A DNA stretch of 32,111 nt. Origin: Thermoanaerobaculaceae bacterium (GTDB taxonomy: Bacteria > Acidobacteriota > Thermoanaerobaculia > Thermoanaerobaculales > Thermoanaerobaculaceae). The stretch is taken from assembly GCA_025456225.1 (NCBI GenBank), contig JALOLB010000013.1, forward strand, positions 1 through 32,111, in the 5' to 3' direction. The notes beneath the pieces were generated by a model, which saw nothing but the letters and a program-made list of their open reading frames with translations, searched no databases and was not told the origin of the DNA. A program made the position numbers and the translations under genes. Below are positions 16,812 through 29,275 of the stretch, piece by piece. The first letter of the stretch is position 1, and each line of letters starts with the position of its first letter.

Positions 16812-16815
16812 GGAG

Positions 16816-16919
16816 TTCGAGAGTCGAGAGTTGAAGACCCCCTCCCCGGTGAGGCTCTCCCTTGGCTCCAGGTTCGACACGTGTCTCAACTGGGGGGCGG
16901 GTGGGGGAGAGCTCTCGAA
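16816..16919. repeat. intergenic imperfect palindrome (copy 1 of a putative family)
   Basis: Lies between two converging genes. The outer arms are TTCGAGAG (16816-16823) and CTCTCGAA (16912-16919). Inside them, CTCTCCC and CCAGGTTCGACAC on the left pair with the right arm, which read in reverse gives CTCTCCC and CCAGTTGAGACAC. A perfect GACACGTGTC (16876-16885) sits at the centre. The left arm carries about 31 extra bases, so the palindrome is lopsided. CCTTGGCTCCAGGTTC (16860-16875) recurs, with three inserted bases, at 22339-22357. It could serve as a two-way terminator, though no T-run is seen. Confidence 0.55.
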
Positions 16920-16942
16920 TGGAGGGGTGGGAGGGGAAGCTC

Positions 16943-18763: not shown

Positions 18764-21700
18764 TCAGTCCTCCAGCCGCACCGAGACGACCCGCGACACC
18801 CCCGGCTCCTCCATGGTGACGCCGTAGAGCACGTCGGCGTGGGCCATGGTGCGGCGGTTGTGGGTGATGAGCAGGAACTGCGTCTCGGTGCTCATGGTCC
18901 GCAGCAGGCGGCACAGCCGCTCGACGTTGGCGTCGTCGAGGGGCGCGTCAACCTCGTCCAGGAGGCAGAACGGCGCCGGGCGGATGCGGAACAGCGCGAG
19001 CAGCAGCGCCACGGCCGCCAGCGCCTTCTCGCCGCCCGAGAGCAGCAGCACGGACTGGGTGTGCTTGCCGGGCGGGCGGACCCGGATCTCGATCCCCGAG
19101 TCGAGGGGGGAGTCCGGGTCGGACAGCTCGGCCCGCGCCTCACCGCCGCCGAAGAGCTCCCGGAAGACCTCGTCGAACGCCACATTCGCCTCCTCGAGCG
19201 CCGCCAGGAAGCGGGTGGCGCAGGTGGCGTCCAGCTCGCCGATGGTGGCGTCCAGGGAGGCCAGGGAGCGATCCAGATCCCGGCGCTGCTCGCCCAGGAA
19301 GCGGTGGCGCTCCTCCAGCTCGTCGCGCTCGGCCACCGCCAGCTCGTTGACCGGCCCGAGCGCCTCGAGCTCCTGGGTGAGGGCTGCGTCCTCGTGCTCG
19401 AGGGCGGGCACCGACGCGGCGTCCGGCGGCGCCTCGGCCAGCACGGCGTCGGGTCCGAGGGTAAGGGCGATGGCCTCGTCGATGCGCGCCGCGGCGGCCC
19501 GAGCCTCGGCGAGGGCCAGCTCGGCCGCGTGCGCAGTGTTGCGGGCGGTCAGGTGGGCGGTGCGAGCCTGCTCGGTGGCGGCGGTGGCGGCGCTCACCTG
19601 GGCGCGCAACGCCTCGGTGGTGACCGCCAGGGCCTCGGCCTGGCGTTTGGCCGCAGCCCGCCGCGCCAGCAGCTCGGCGAGGTCGGCCTGGGCGCTCACC
19701 GTCTCGCGGGCGGCCGTTGCGGCCAGCTCGGCCTGGGCCGCAGCCTCGTCCTGGGCATGCTGCAGGCGGGTCCCCAGCTCGGAGAGCTCCTGGTGGTGCC
19801 GCTCGAGGTCGCGGGCAGCGCTCCCGGCGCGCTCGCGGGCGAGGGCGGCGGCGCCCCGGGCCCGCTCCGCCTCGGCGCGGGCCAGGCTGGCGGCCTCGCG
19901 CGAGCGCTCGGCCTCGCGGGCCAGGGCGTCCACCTCGGCCTCCAGCTCGGCGGCCCGGCGGAGCAGCCGCTCGGCCTCGGCGGACGTGGCACCCTGTCGC
20001 ACGCCCAGCGCGGTCGCCTCGGCCGCCAGGCGGTCGGCCTCGACTCCCAGTGCCTCGAGCTCCCGCTCAAGGCGCAGTTGCTCGCGGTGGAGCGCCTGCT
20101 GCGTGGAGGTGGCGGCGGCCAGGGCCTCCGCCTGCCCCCGGGCGGCGTGGTCGGCTGCCTGCAGGGTCTTCTGCAGCTCGACAAGCTGTGTCTGGACGCC
20201 GGCCAGCTCCTCGGCGTGGCGCCCCTCGGTGGCGGTCGCCCGGACCTCGGTCGCAGCGAGGGCACGCTCGCGCTGCCGCAGCTCGAGGACCCCCGGGGCG
20301 GCCGCTTGCCCGGCCGGCAGCTCGACGCGGGTGCCGCGGCGACGGGCACCGCCCGGCAGCAGGACGACCAGGTCCGGATCCGCCACCGCGAGGCGCTCCC
20401 CCTCCTCGACCGACTCGGCCACCGCCGCGCGGGGCAGGGCGGCGCCCAGCCACCCCAGGTCCTCGGCCCGGGCACCGGCCGCCTCGAGCAGCGGCGACGT
20501 CCGGGGCGGCAGCGCCCGGTTGGCCACCGCCACCTCGAGCCGGCCTTCGCCCTTGAGGCGACGGGAGAGAAGCTCCCGCACCGACGCCTCGTCGGCCAGC
20601 ACCGGCAGCAGCAGCAGGTCGCCCCAGGCGCGATCCAGGAGGGGTGCCTGGGAGGGGTCGGGGTCGAGGAAGTCGGACACGGTGCCCAGCACCTGCTCGG
20701 TCGGCACGGCCCGCGCCAGGACCTGCGGCAGGGCGCGTGCCGTCTGCAGCGTGCGCTGCACACCCAGGCGCTCGTGGTGCGCTTGCCAGCGCTCGTGCCC
20801 GGCCTGATCGCGGGCCGCAGCCAGCTCGGACGCGCGGGTCGTGGCCGCCTCGAGCCGGGCTCGCAGCTCGCCCCGGGCCCGTTCGCCCTCGGCGGCCTCG
20901 GCCGTCAGGGTCGCGGACCTGGCCGTGGCCTGCTCGGCGGAGGCGGCGGCCTGGGCCAGGCTCTGGCGCAGACGCTGCTGCTCGCCCTCCAGGCGGGTTC
21001 GCTGGTAGCCCACCTGCTCCATCTCGACGCCGAGGCGATGACCCCGGTTGCGGGCATCGTTGGCGGCGGAGGCCGCGGCCAGGAGCTGGCGGCGGGCCTC
21101 CTCGGCGCGGCTGGTGGCGGCCCTGGCGGTCTCCTCGGCGGCTCGGGCGTGACCCTGGGCGTGACCGGCGGCGGTCTCGGCCGAGTCGGCCGTGGCGCCG
21201 GCCGCGGCCGCAGCGCCCTCGAGCGCTGCACCGTGCCGCTCGTGGGCGCGGATCTCGGTCGCCAGCCGCTCGCCCTCGGTCGCGGCCGCCTCGCGCCGGG
21301 CCAGGGCCTCGGCGTGTCGCTGGCGGGCGGCAGCCTCCTCGGCCTCGCGGCGCTGGGCCCGGGCGTTGGCGTCGGCCTCCTCCTGCCGGGCGGCCGCCAC
21401 CTGCTCGACGGAGTCGTCGAGCTCGCGGCGCTGGGAGGCGAGAGCGGCCTCATGGCCACCGAGGGCGGCGGCGGCCTCGGCGTCGGCGAGCTGCGCCGCG
21501 GTCAGCGCCGCCTGACGCTCGTCCACCAGGCCCAGCGCCGTGACCCGTCGCCCCGCGAAGAGGGCGCCGCGCACCGTGGCCAGGCGCGTGCGGAGCTCCC
21601 GGTGCCTCTCCGCCCGGCGAGCCTGCCGGCGGGCCGCCTCCAGGTTGCGCCGCACCTCGCTCGCCACGTCGGCCAGCCGCAGCAGGTTGGCCTTGGTCTC

Positions 21701-22255
21701 GGCGAGCTTGAGCTCGGCCTCGTGGCGGCGCGCCCGGAACTTGGTGATGCCGGCCGCCTCCTCGAAGAGCAGCCGGCGCTCGGTGGCGCGCACCGAGAGA
21801 ACCTGACCGATGCGTCCCTGCTCGATGATCGCGTAGGCGCGCGTCCCGAGGCCCGCGTCCATCAGGTGGTCGAGGACATCCCGGAGACGCACCCGCTTGC
21901 CGCCGATGCGGTAGTCGGAGGTGCCGTCCCGCAGCACGCGCCGGCTGATCTCGAGGCGCCCGTCGGTGCTGCCCCAGCGGTCGTCGCCGGCGGACAGGTA
22001 GAGGGCGACACTGGCCCCACCCAACGGCGCCCGGCGTGGCGAGCCGGCGAAGATCACGTCGGCCATCGACTGGGAGCGCAGCAGGCGGGCCGACTGCTCG
22101 CCCAGCACCCAGGCAATCGCGTCGGCGATGTTCGACTTGCCCGTGCCGTTGGGTCCGACGATGGCGATGATGGCGCCCGGGAACGACAGCTCGACCCGGC
22201 CGGCGAACGACTTGAACCCCTCGAGGGTGAGCGAGGCGAGGCGTACCGAGGCCAT
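18764..22255 (-). CDS. smc: chromosome segregation ATPase SMC
   Basis: A 1163-residue SMC, the usual size. The N-terminal head begins LTLEGFKSFAGRVELSF with Walker A GPNGTGKS at 34-41. Long Ala/Arg/Glu-rich coiled coils run from about 170-515 and 655-1000. A hinge lies between (about 515-655, containing FLDPDPSQAPLLDRAWGDL). The C-terminal head has the signature LLSGGEKALAAVALLLALF near 1070 and Walker B FCLLDEVDAPLDD near 1100. It forms a dimer that loops and compacts the chromosome with ScpA/ScpB, which are not in the window. I start at the ATG at 22255 just before the conserved head. A longer reading to 22402 would run through a palindromic repeat and is not credible. No clear Shine-Dalgarno is visible. 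Confidence 0.95.
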   Translation of the reverse strand: MASVRLASLTLEGFKSFAGRVELSFPGAIIAIVGPNGTGKSNIADAIAWVLGEQSARLLRSQSMADVIFAGSPRRAPLGGASVALYLSAGDDRWGSTDGRLEISRRVLRDGTSDYRIGGKRVRLRDVLDHLMDAGLGTRAYAIIEQGRIGQVLSVRATERRLLFEEAAGITKFRARRHEAELKLAETKANLLRLADVASEVRRNLEAARRQARRAERHRELRTRLATVRGALFAGRRVTALGLVDERQAALTAAQLADAEAAAALGGHEAALASQRRELDDSVEQVAAARQEEADANARAQRREAEEAAARQRHAEALARREAAATEGERLATEIRAHERHGAALEGAAAAAGATADSAETAAGHAQGHARAAEETARAATSRAEEARRQLLAAASAANDARNRGHRLGVEMEQVGYQRTRLEGEQQRLRQSLAQAAASAEQATARSATLTAEAAEGERARGELRARLEAATTRASELAAARDQAGHERWQAHHERLGVQRTLQTARALPQVLARAVPTEQVLGTVSDFLDPDPSQAPLLDRAWGDLLLLPVLADEASVRELLSRRLKGEGRLEVAVANRALPPRTSPLLEAAGARAEDLGWLGAALPRAAVAESVEEGERLAVADPDLVVLLPGGARRRGTRVELPAGQAAAPGVLELRQRERALAATEVRATATEGRHAEELAGVQTQLVELQKTLQAADHAARGQAEALAAATSTQQALHREQLRLERELEALGVEADRLAAEATALGVRQGATSAEAERLLRRAAELEAEVDALAREAERSREAASLARAEAERARGAAALARERAGSAARDLERHHQELSELGTRLQHAQDEAAAQAELAATAARETVSAQADLAELLARRAAAKRQAEALAVTTEALRAQVSAATAATEQARTAHLTARNTAHAAELALAEARAAAARIDEAIALTLGPDAVLAEAPPDAASVPALEHEDAALTQELEALGPVNELAVAERDELEERHRFLGEQRRDLDRSLASLDATIGELDATCATRFLAALEEANVAFDEVFRELFGGGEARAELSDPDSPLDSGIEIRVRPPGKHTQSVLLLSGGEKALAAVALLLALFRIRPAPFCLLDEVDAPLDDANVERLCRLLRTMSTETQFLLITHNRRTMAHADVLYGVTMEEPGVSRVVSVRLED

Positions 22256-22280
22256 CTTCGAGCAGCGGATGGTATCACCC

Positions 22281-22560
22281 CCCGCCCGCCCAGGGGAGAG
22301 GATAGAGGGGAGAGGGGAGAGCGGGGAGCGAACGATAACCTTGGCTGCTCCAGGTTCTTGGGCCTGGTCCTCGACCGGGACGTGGATCTGGACCCCGAGC
22401 ACGAAGGCTGGTCGCAGCAGGAGTCCCGATGCAGCTCACCTGCCTCGAATCGATCCGAGGTCGTGGCGACGCTCAGCCCGGATCCACGTTCAGGCCCAGG
22501 TGCGAACCGTGCGGGCGGGCTCTCCCCTCTCCCCTCTATCCTCTCCCCCGGGTGGGCGGG
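22281..22560. repeat. 280-bp palindromic element with 42-bp inverted arms (copy 2)
   Basis: The left arm (22281-22322) and right arm (22519-22560) are inverted copies matching at 40 of 42 positions. They contain a long purine-rich run on one strand (core GGGGAGAGGATAGAGGGGAG). Nested pairs continue inward: GGGCCTG (22360-22366) with CAGGCCC (22491-22497), and CGTGGATC (22381-22388) with GATCCACG (22481-22488). All pairs share roughly one centre near 22425. There is no coding sequence or transposase inside. The right arm overlaps the last codons and stop of amrS; the left arm ends 25 bases before smc. A non-autonomous mobile repeat or a large RNA hairpin are the main options. Confidence 0.8.
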
Positions 22561-23606
22561 GGAGCGGCCCAGCGGCCGGGGATCGAGGCGCCGCAGGCCG
22601 GGCAGCGGCCATCGGAGGTCATGCGCTGCTCGAGGACTGCAAACCCCAGGCGGCGGACGAGGGTGGTCTCGCACGCCGGGCAGCGGGTGTGCTCGAGGTC
22701 CTGGGTGCGGCCGGGGAGGTTGCCGGCATAGACGAAGCGCAGGCCGTGGGCGCGACCCGCGTCGGCCGCCCGCCGCAGGCTGGCGGCGGGCGTCGCCGGG
22801 CGATCGGTCATCTCGTAGTCGGGGTGGAACGCGGTGACGTGCCAGGGAATGTCGGGGGAGACGCCGGCGAGGAAGGCGGCCATGCCAGCGAGCTCCTCGT
22901 CGCTGTCGTTGAGGCCCGGCACGACCAGGGTCACCACCTCCACCCAGACGCCGCGCGACCACAGGCCGCGGATCGTCTCGAGCACCGCCTCGAGCTGGCC
23001 TCCGAGCGCCCGGTAGGTGTCGGAGCTGAAGGCCTTGAGGTCCACCTTCATGGCATCGAGGACCGGAGTCAGGAAGTCGAGGACCTCGGGGGTGCCGTGG
23101 CCGTTCGAGACGAGGCCCGTGAGCAACCCGGCCCGCCTCGCGAGGGTGAAGATGTCGAACGCCCACTCGGCGGTGATCAGGGGCTCGTTGTAGGTCGAGG
23201 TGATCACCGTGCAACCGTGGGCGGCCGCGGCCTCCACGAGCTCCTCGGGGCGCACCGGGCGGGCCGAGCCCTCGGCCCCGGGGTCGTGGCCGACCTGGGA
23301 CGAAAACCAGTTCTGACAGAACGAGCAGTGGAAGTTGCAGCCGAGCATCCCGAAGGAGAGCGCGCGGACACCGGGAAGGAGATGGAAGAATGGCTTCTTC
23401 TCGATCGGGTCGACGGCCACCCCGGCCGCGCACCCCCAGGGCACGGCCAGGGCGTCCCCCTCGCGGCGGCGCTGCAGGCAGACGCCGCGGCCTCCCGGGG
23501 CGAGCAGGCAGCGGTGGGCGCAGGCGACGCACTGCAGCTTGCCCGAAGGGTGGGGGCGAGCCAGCTCGCGGCGCCGGGTGGTCGGGAGGGGGGGCGGTGT
23601 GCTCAT
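22536..23606 (-). CDS. amrS: AmmeMemoRadiSam-type radical SAM enzyme
   Basis: A 356-residue radical SAM protein. The cluster motif GCNFHCSFCQNW (Cys at 90, 94 and 97) is in the family-typical context FGMLGCNFHCSFCQNWF. An N-terminal Cys group (CVACAHRC, then CLQRRREGD) and a C-terminal zinc-ribbon-like part (CPAC, then a second CPAC) frame the barrel. TYNEPLI and VSNGHGTPEVLD are also characteristic of AmrS, close to PflA-like activases. It belongs to the widespread Memo/AMMECR1/radical SAM trio of unknown substrate; the two partners are absent here. The last residues (PPPTRGRG) and stop come from a palindromic repeat arm, suggesting a changed C-terminus. The ATG may be leaderless: the -10 lies 6 bases before it and no Shine-Dalgarno is seen. 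Confidence 0.9.
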   Translation of the reverse strand: MSTPPPLPTTRRRELARPHPSGKLQCVACAHRCLLAPGGRGVCLQRRREGDALAVPWGCAAGVAVDPIEKKPFFHLLPGVRALSFGMLGCNFHCSFCQNWFSSQVGHDPGAEGSARPVRPEELVEAAAAHGCTVITSTYNEPLITAEWAFDIFTLARRAGLLTGLVSNGHGTPEVLDFLTPVLDAMKVDLKAFSSDTYRALGGQLEAVLETIRGLWSRGVWVEVVTLVVPGLNDSDEELAGMAAFLAGVSPDIPWHVTAFHPDYEMTDRPATPAASLRRAADAGRAHGLRFVYAGNLPGRTQDLEHTRCPACETTLVRRLGFAVLEQRMTSDGRCPACGASIPGRWAAPPPTRGRG

Positions 23607-28808: not shown

Positions 28809-28985
28809 CCCACACACCTTCAAGCCCCGAATCCAAACCTGGACCTGGGCCTGGACCCCGATCGAGATGGAAGGCTGACGGAAGGCCCCCCAGCAGCCAT
28901 CTCACTGCGGACTACCGCGGCAAAGCTCCGGCCATGGATCGGTCCAGGTCCAGGTTTCCGTGATGGGTGAATGGGCGTGTGTGGG
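28809..28985. repeat. intergenic imperfect palindrome (copy 3)
   Basis: CCCACACAC (28809-28817) and AAACCTGGACCTGG (28835-28848) on the left pair with CCAGGTCCAGGTTT (28944-28957) and GTGTGTGGG (28977-28985) on the right; less exact pairing (GACCCCGATC with GATCGGTCC) continues inward. CTGGACCCCGA and AAGGCTG, spaced by several bases, also occur in the 22.3-22.6 kb element, which suggests a common origin. It starts directly after the regulator stop codon and may act as that transcript's end or a processing hairpin. Confidence 0.6.
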
Positions 28986-29013
28986 GCAGGTCGGATGGTC
29001 GACAGCCATCCAC

Positions 29014-29042
29014 AAAAAAAGAGTGGCGGGGGGTACCCGCCA
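29014..29042 (-). terminator. intrinsic terminator facing the minus strand
   Basis: Read on the minus strand: TGGCGGG, loop TACCC, CCCGCCA (a perfect 7-bp G+C-rich stem), then CTC and seven T. This is a textbook Rho-independent terminator, but no minus-strand gene lies to its right within the window. On the plus strand the T-run becomes an A-run before the stem and would not terminate. Confidence 0.6.
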
Positions 29043-29246
29043 GGAAGGAGGAGGAGGTTGGATGCGTGGGTTCGGGTCGTGGCCGTGACCCTTGCCGCAT
29101 TCTTCCCTTGAGCAAGTCCCGTGCCAGGTCTCGACCGGCGAAGTCGGCCCCCCGGGCGCGGCACGTGCCGTGGTGGCACCCGTCGACGCGCGGGTGGATT
29201 CTCCGCACGTCCCTTCCCGGTGACAGCCGTCCGGAAGCCCTCCCGC
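29043..29246. other. intergenic stretch without a recognised gene
   Basis: Part of the 511-base gap between the sigma-54 activator and acpP. I see no ribosome site followed by a credible reading frame and no tRNA, signal-recognition RNA, RNase P RNA or riboswitch consensus on either strand. Its left edge is a terminator for minus-strand transcription, so a short untranslated minus-strand RNA from this stretch is possible but unproven. The right edge leads into the acpP promoter. Confidence 0.4.
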
Positions 29247-29275
29247 TTGCATGGCGGCATGGCCTGTGGTAGAAA
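29247..29275 (+). promoter_or_regulatory. sigma-70-like promoter of acpP-fabF
   Basis: TTGCAT (29247-29252) and TAGAAA (29270-29275) are 17 bases apart, close to the pattern of the 3.5 kb promoter (TTGCAC/TAGAAT). A start near 29282 leaves about 38 bases of leader before the acpP ATG, including AAGGAG. Confidence 0.6.

Follow-up and report, generated by a model that had tools for sequence, protein, structure and literature searches.

Heptameric G-quadruplex repeats of the unit GGGAATC were described in Xanthomonas campestris and Xanthomonas axonopodis by Rehm et al. (2015; PMC4692102). Arrays of four units are preferred, and each genome contains 70-75 convergent inverted pairs. The repeats are located on the sense strand at most 50 bp from a stop codon or on the antisense strand upstream of open reading frames; they are rare between divergent genes, intragenic in a minority of cases and generally not tied to IS elements (PMC4692102). 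Rehm and coworkers left the function and origin of these repeats open. In the Beggiatoaceae, MacGregor (2015; PMC4679880) reported TAACTGA repeats that are nearly all direct and mostly lie just upstream of start codons.

A similar arrangement is present in the genome of a Thermoanaerobaculaceae bacterium (phylum Acidobacteriota; assembly GCA_025456225.1, here G000), in the spacer between amrS and smc, which are both encoded on the minus strand. The stretch that was analyzed, called the window, is positions 1 to 32,111 (32,111 nucleotides) of contig JALOLB010000013.1. As in Xanthomonas, the repeats consist of a G-rich heptad in about four units, form convergent pairs and are oriented with respect to gene edges. 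They differ from the Xanthomonas repeats in unit and phylum and in that a single layout, with its junction motifs, is common to several unit families. They differ further in the nesting of hexad repeats, the existence of arm-free relatives and the demonstration that the arm is a dispersed 29-mer. Like the heptads of cyanobacteria and the TAACTGA arrays (PMC4679880 and references therein), they are intergenic and patchy across relatives, and the mechanism by which such arrays spread is not known. Unlike the direct arrays of the Beggiatoaceae, the arms here occur in convergent pairs.

The preliminary description of this spacer reported a 280-bp near-palindrome at 22281-22560 with arms matching at 40 of 42 positions and further pairs nested within. 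Both observations hold: a repeat search of the window extended the arms to 44 nt (42 of 44 positions, 95% complementary) separated by 196 nt, and an inner inverted pair was found (Table 1). No other inverted repeat within 400 nt in the window is as strong as this element. The two arms have the same order on opposite strands, and their 29-mers do not differ at any position, a variant heptad being shared by both. The earlier account had missed three features: the arms are built of tandem 7-bp units, the interior is a dispersed repeat in its own right, and the stop codon of amrS comes from an arm. The palindrome is probably a non-autonomous, MITE-like dispersed element that was inserted between amrS and smc in this lineage, a reading based on the dispersal of one arm module, its strict polarity, its lineage-specific gain and the common pool from which arms are drawn. 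The inverted ends are a fixed module of four G-rich heptads, 29 bp in length and in many cases edged by C-rich CCCNCCC runs.

Table 1. Positions of the palindrome, its parts and other features in the window
Feature	Coordinates	Strand	Description
Left arm	22279..22322	+	C-rich lead CCCCCGCCCGCCCA, then four heptads GGGGAGAGGATAGAGGGGAGAGGGGAGAG at 22293-22321
Right arm	22519..22562	-	Same order on minus strand; heptads 22520-22548, C-rich CCCCCGCCCACCCG lead 22549-22562
Inner hexad arm, left	22369..22391	+	Decayed; inverted pair, 78%
Inner hexad arm, right	22478..22500	-	Decayed; inverted pair, 78%
Interior	22346..22510		Dispersed hexad-armed (GTGGAC/GGACCT) repeat family, seen in this genome only
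Second hexad-family copy	28836..28955	+	No GGGGAGA arms or heptads
GAGAGTC-type heptads and GGGNGGG motifs	16812..16942		Convergent-gene spacer; found by eye; probable relative of another unit family
smc	18764..22255	-	TIGR02168, E 6e-236
amrS	22536..23606	-	AmmeMemoRadiSam radical SAM enzyme, TIGR04337
smc extended -10-like motif	22269..22277	-	TGATACCAT; putative promoter role; just outside the element

Aligned arms show that the module is a fixed 29-mer, GGGGAGAGGRNAGAGGGGAGAGGGGAGAG, in which G-rich units of 7 nt form a short tandem array of about four and variation is mostly confined to positions 10-11. The nucleotide search for the arm core that the preliminary description had suggested returned many further intergenic copies in the same genome. 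Exact GGGGAGAGGGGAGAG occurs 105 times (56 + 49) in G000 and 24 times in G003, a family member from a different genus; the congener G001 has none. When one mismatch was allowed, the 29-mer was found in 44 copies in G000 and in two copies in G300, and in none of the other 394 of 396 genomes drawn from the phylum, a draw that did not include G003. The two copies in G300, a member of another family, each have one mismatch and are both on the plus strand (C168:6231 and C230:21862). The dispersed copies share terminal inverted repeats, as MITEs do. An assembly artefact is scarcely credible as the source of the palindrome: the assembly is a MAG in 450 contigs and palindromes can mislead assemblers, but the same arms are present at dozens of sites within contigs, both here and in the separately assembled G003, with consistent order and polarity.

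The arms are oriented with respect to genes. Genes were delimited with a codon-usage script. Of 87 intergenic arms, 77 point into the spacer and away from the gene edge closest to them (p 6e-14), with a median separation of 17 nt. In spacers with exactly two arms the order is convergent ('+-') in 22 cases and '-+' in none, and 37 of 61 spacers contain a single arm, which weighs against a mobile element. Purine-first polarity was also tested as a general property of spacers and is not general. The arms of one element match each other at 25.8 of 29 positions, compared with 26.1 of 29 for arms of different elements. Arms therefore come from a common pool, and stem pairing is not maintained. The focal element, with its identical 29-mers, is exceptional in this respect and may be young.

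These counts bear on an origin as microsatellites, in which replication slippage would generate the heptads and local fold-back template switching would add the inverted partner. Heptads are favored among bacterial simple sequence repeats and slippage has been proposed for them, as cited in PMC4692102 and PMC4679880. In addition, many different units coexist in this one genome, and the two focal 29-mers are identical down to the variant heptad. Such an origin is nevertheless rather unlikely, given a unit number near four, a '-+' order that is never seen and junction motifs that are common to different units. In addition, the same variant arm, with GGATAGA in second place, recurs at unrelated sites, and a fold-back origin of each palindrome was rejected because the two arms of an element resemble each other no more closely than arms taken from separate elements.

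Comparison with relatives argues for gain of a mobile element in this lineage. No heptad arms are present in the amrS-smc spacers of G001, G002, G004, G006, G007, G009, G010, G011 and G014. Unrelated inverted repeats occupy this spacer in three other relatives: that of G003 is of RAYT type, that of G008 has octad-like purine arms and that of G015 purine-rich arms. Two further spacers were compared. The prs-rplY spacer is 283 nt long here, where an element begins directly after the prs stop codon, and 59-72 nt long in G003, G004, G005 and G007, while lpd-E2 measures about 200 nt here and 52-81 nt in G004, G005 and G007. In G008 both of these spacers contain a CAGTTGA-type element. The lpd-E2 spacer of G001 is 212 nt long without heptad arms, and thus spacer length alone is no proof of gain. 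Since several relatives have short spacers lacking arms at each of the three loci, the element is considered to have been gained; the divergence of the relatives leaves no exact empty site for comparison, so that the gain is seen at the level of the spacer. Inspection by eye of two sites, the focal flanks (22270-22278 and 22563-22571) and prs-rplY, revealed no target-site duplication.

The focal element encloses, or includes, the hexad-armed repeat of its interior. A search with nhmmer using the interior alone found five further places, and an iterated model found 29 places with hexad arms and a semi-conserved core in the G000 sequence, a count that is approximate since iterated models can drift on low-complexity sequence. 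The window spacer at 28809-29265 is likewise repeat-armed, with CCTGGA hexads. The interiors of heptad elements are singletons in 26 of 40 cases, the hexad family being the exception, and a conserved interior of the MITE kind was thus not found among the copies.

GGGGAGA is one of several units. Inverted repeats scoring at least 15 are present in 24% of spacers of 80-500 nt in 423 kb of this genome, drawn from contigs chosen for their GGGGAGA content, and no shuffled spacer reached this score. The units found in this genome are GGGGAGA, GGGGTCC, GAGAGTC, GATCAGT, CTCAGRC, GGCTCAA and the hexad GTGGAC; CAGTTGA is another heptad family with the same layout, and G008 and G003 carry other units. 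With a slightly different cut, inverted-repeat spacers number 42 of 172 here, 10 of 48 in G008, 6 of 52 in G003 and 1 of 24 in G006, and none in G001 (0/42), G005 (0/25), G010 (0/32), G015 (0/33) and G011 (0/15), the samples from relatives being small (38-160 kb). Array flanks carry CCCNCCC on either strand in 24-33% of cases compared with 4% of background, and AAGAC in 7-12% compared with 1%, against a background that is not matched to the arrays in base composition. The C-rich motif shows no association with one side of the arm. Because unrelated units have these junctions in common, the motifs point to one shared process. A broader proposal, advanced tentatively, is that the elements belong to a modular mobile class with a fixed end design (about four 7-nt units, convergent, with CCCNCCC/AAGAC junctions), in which the unit is swapped between lineages or within a genome, elements are nested and one machinery serves all units; the Xanthomonas and cyanobacterial heptads would then be other branches.

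The unit families also bear on the idea that the arms are DNA-structure elements, forming G-quadruplexes, triplexes or cruciforms for chromosome organization or as sites for proteins such as gyrase or nucleoid proteins. Most arms carry several GGGG runs, and the similar Xanthomonas units form G-quadruplexes in vitro (PMC4692102). The GATCAGT, GAGAGTC and CTCAGRC families, however, have the same layout with few or no G-runs, and the arms do not occur in the sequence sampled from the congener G001, making this explanation very improbable.

At the insertion site, the TAG stop codon of amrS (22536-22538) lies within the right arm, and the C-terminal AAPPPTRGRG of AmrS and its stop are encoded by or adjoin the element. 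In several relatives AmrS ends soon after the same GRW-type motif, suggesting that the last residues here are derived from the element. A block of extended -10 character, GGTGnTAnnAT, precedes the smc ATG at a short distance and is conserved among relatives; in this genome 13 nt separate it from the ATG, which places it between the hairpin and the start codon. The hairpin was predicted to end 25 bases before smc, and 25 nt do separate 22281 from the smc start at 22255. As the putative -10 is downstream of the hairpin, smc transcripts initiated there would be free of it, and transcripts derived from amrS would contain it. The probable outcome of the insertion is that the element supplies the amrS stop, would give every transcript that continues from amrS toward smc a very stable hairpin and leaves the putative smc -10 intact.

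Whether the hairpin was selected as a terminator, an insulator or a stem for RNase III-type processing that parts amrS from smc and similar gene pairs was weighed against these data. The spacer does fold very stably, in agreement with the preliminary description: as minus-strand RNA, 22255-22606 has a predicted energy of -212.9 kcal/mol (-169 +/- 5.9 for shuffles; z -7.5), a stability reached by 0 of 100 dinucleotide shuffles, and the element folded alone as DNA has a z of -8.2. No Rfam covariance model matched the focal element above threshold. Spacers with inverted repeats are flanked by tandem genes in 29 cases, convergent genes in 10 and divergent genes in five, compared with 59, 20 and 34 for other spacers (p 0.05 over three classes). 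The mild depletion between divergent genes (5/44 versus 34/113) is compatible with a regulatory role, as is the presence in G008 of an inverted repeat of a different unit in all three spacers that bear an element here (3/3). Enrichment between convergent genes is unclear (10/44 versus 20/113), and gene orientation carries little weight overall, avoidance of divergent promoters being the sole hint. Against such a role, the arms of an element match no better than random arms, many arms are single, the conserved smc -10 motif is downstream of the hairpin, a scan found no terminator-like site with a short GC stem and U-tract, and arms occur within coding genes as well. A selected regulatory hairpin is therefore unlikely, and a terminator as the main account was rejected on the orientation counts, the terminator scan and the arm matching. 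Of the two readings between which the preliminary description had not chosen, the mobile element is supported by the intergenic copies and arm-free relatives, whereas of the regulatory one hairpin formation stands and a clear convergent-gene enrichment, extra arm matching within elements and U-tract terminator do not. Most members of the family look neutral rather than selected as terminators.

Intragenic arms were seen in two genera. GGGGAGA arms lie inside the hypF frame of G000 (L046:1979-2247) and G003 (L098:1991-2028), in the segment that separates the zinc fingers from the Sua5 domain, and leave the frame uninterrupted. Other conserved G003 genes with in-frame arms are hisA (L088:1928-1966) and a MeaB/mutase fusion (L094:1031-2105).

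A MITE-like element would presumably be moved or copied by an enzyme that acts in trans on the arms. No mobilizing gene or autonomous partner with the same ends was found in the sequence examined. RAYT genes number seven in G000, six in G003 and five in G008, and zero to two in eight other family members scanned. Their copy number loosely tracks heptad richness, but RAYT was rejected as the mobilizer as its ends differ: the flanks of the RAYT loci examined have no GGGGAGA and carry GGTACC- or GGGGTCAGGTCTTG-type ends instead. One RAYT gene of this genome (L228:3042-4013) has the ends GGTGCCAGGTCCGTCACTCTTGACACTC, with a matching non-coding copy at L153:5884-6292. A RAYT-type gene of G003 (L235:3106-4071; G003:C8) has the ends GGGGTCAGGTCTTGTACTATGTG, and the amrS-smc spacer of G003 (L131) contains a short element with ends very similar to these that also supplies the amrS stop. 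Reverse transcriptase (PF00078) showed no correlation. An IS110-type transposase gene with CTTATAGGACC-like inverted ends lies within a heptad element (L058:2236-3930; G000:C369), and it was rejected as the partner, being a single-copy insertion inside the hexad interior. The elements resemble MITEs and RAYT-associated REP sequences in being short, non-coding, dispersed and intergenic, with inverted ends, and in being missing from the spacers of relatives. They differ in that no family-wide conserved interior, target duplication or cognate transposase was seen, and the RAYT elements present here have ends quite different from the GGGGAGA arms.

The heptad signature is already described for GGGAATC in Xanthomonas, and earlier reports outside the open-licence literature are possible. 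Heptad repeats of several phyla have been on record for decades, and the open-licence literature gives no explanation of their spread. The signs in this genome, namely a fixed four-unit arm, strict polarity, arm-free relatives, a common arm pool and a shared layout, make the question of spread testable. The heptad-rich genomes G000, G003 and G008 and the heptad-poor genomes G001, G005 and G010 provide a contrast for finding a shared enzyme. Long intergenic hairpins in such genomes need not be regulatory.
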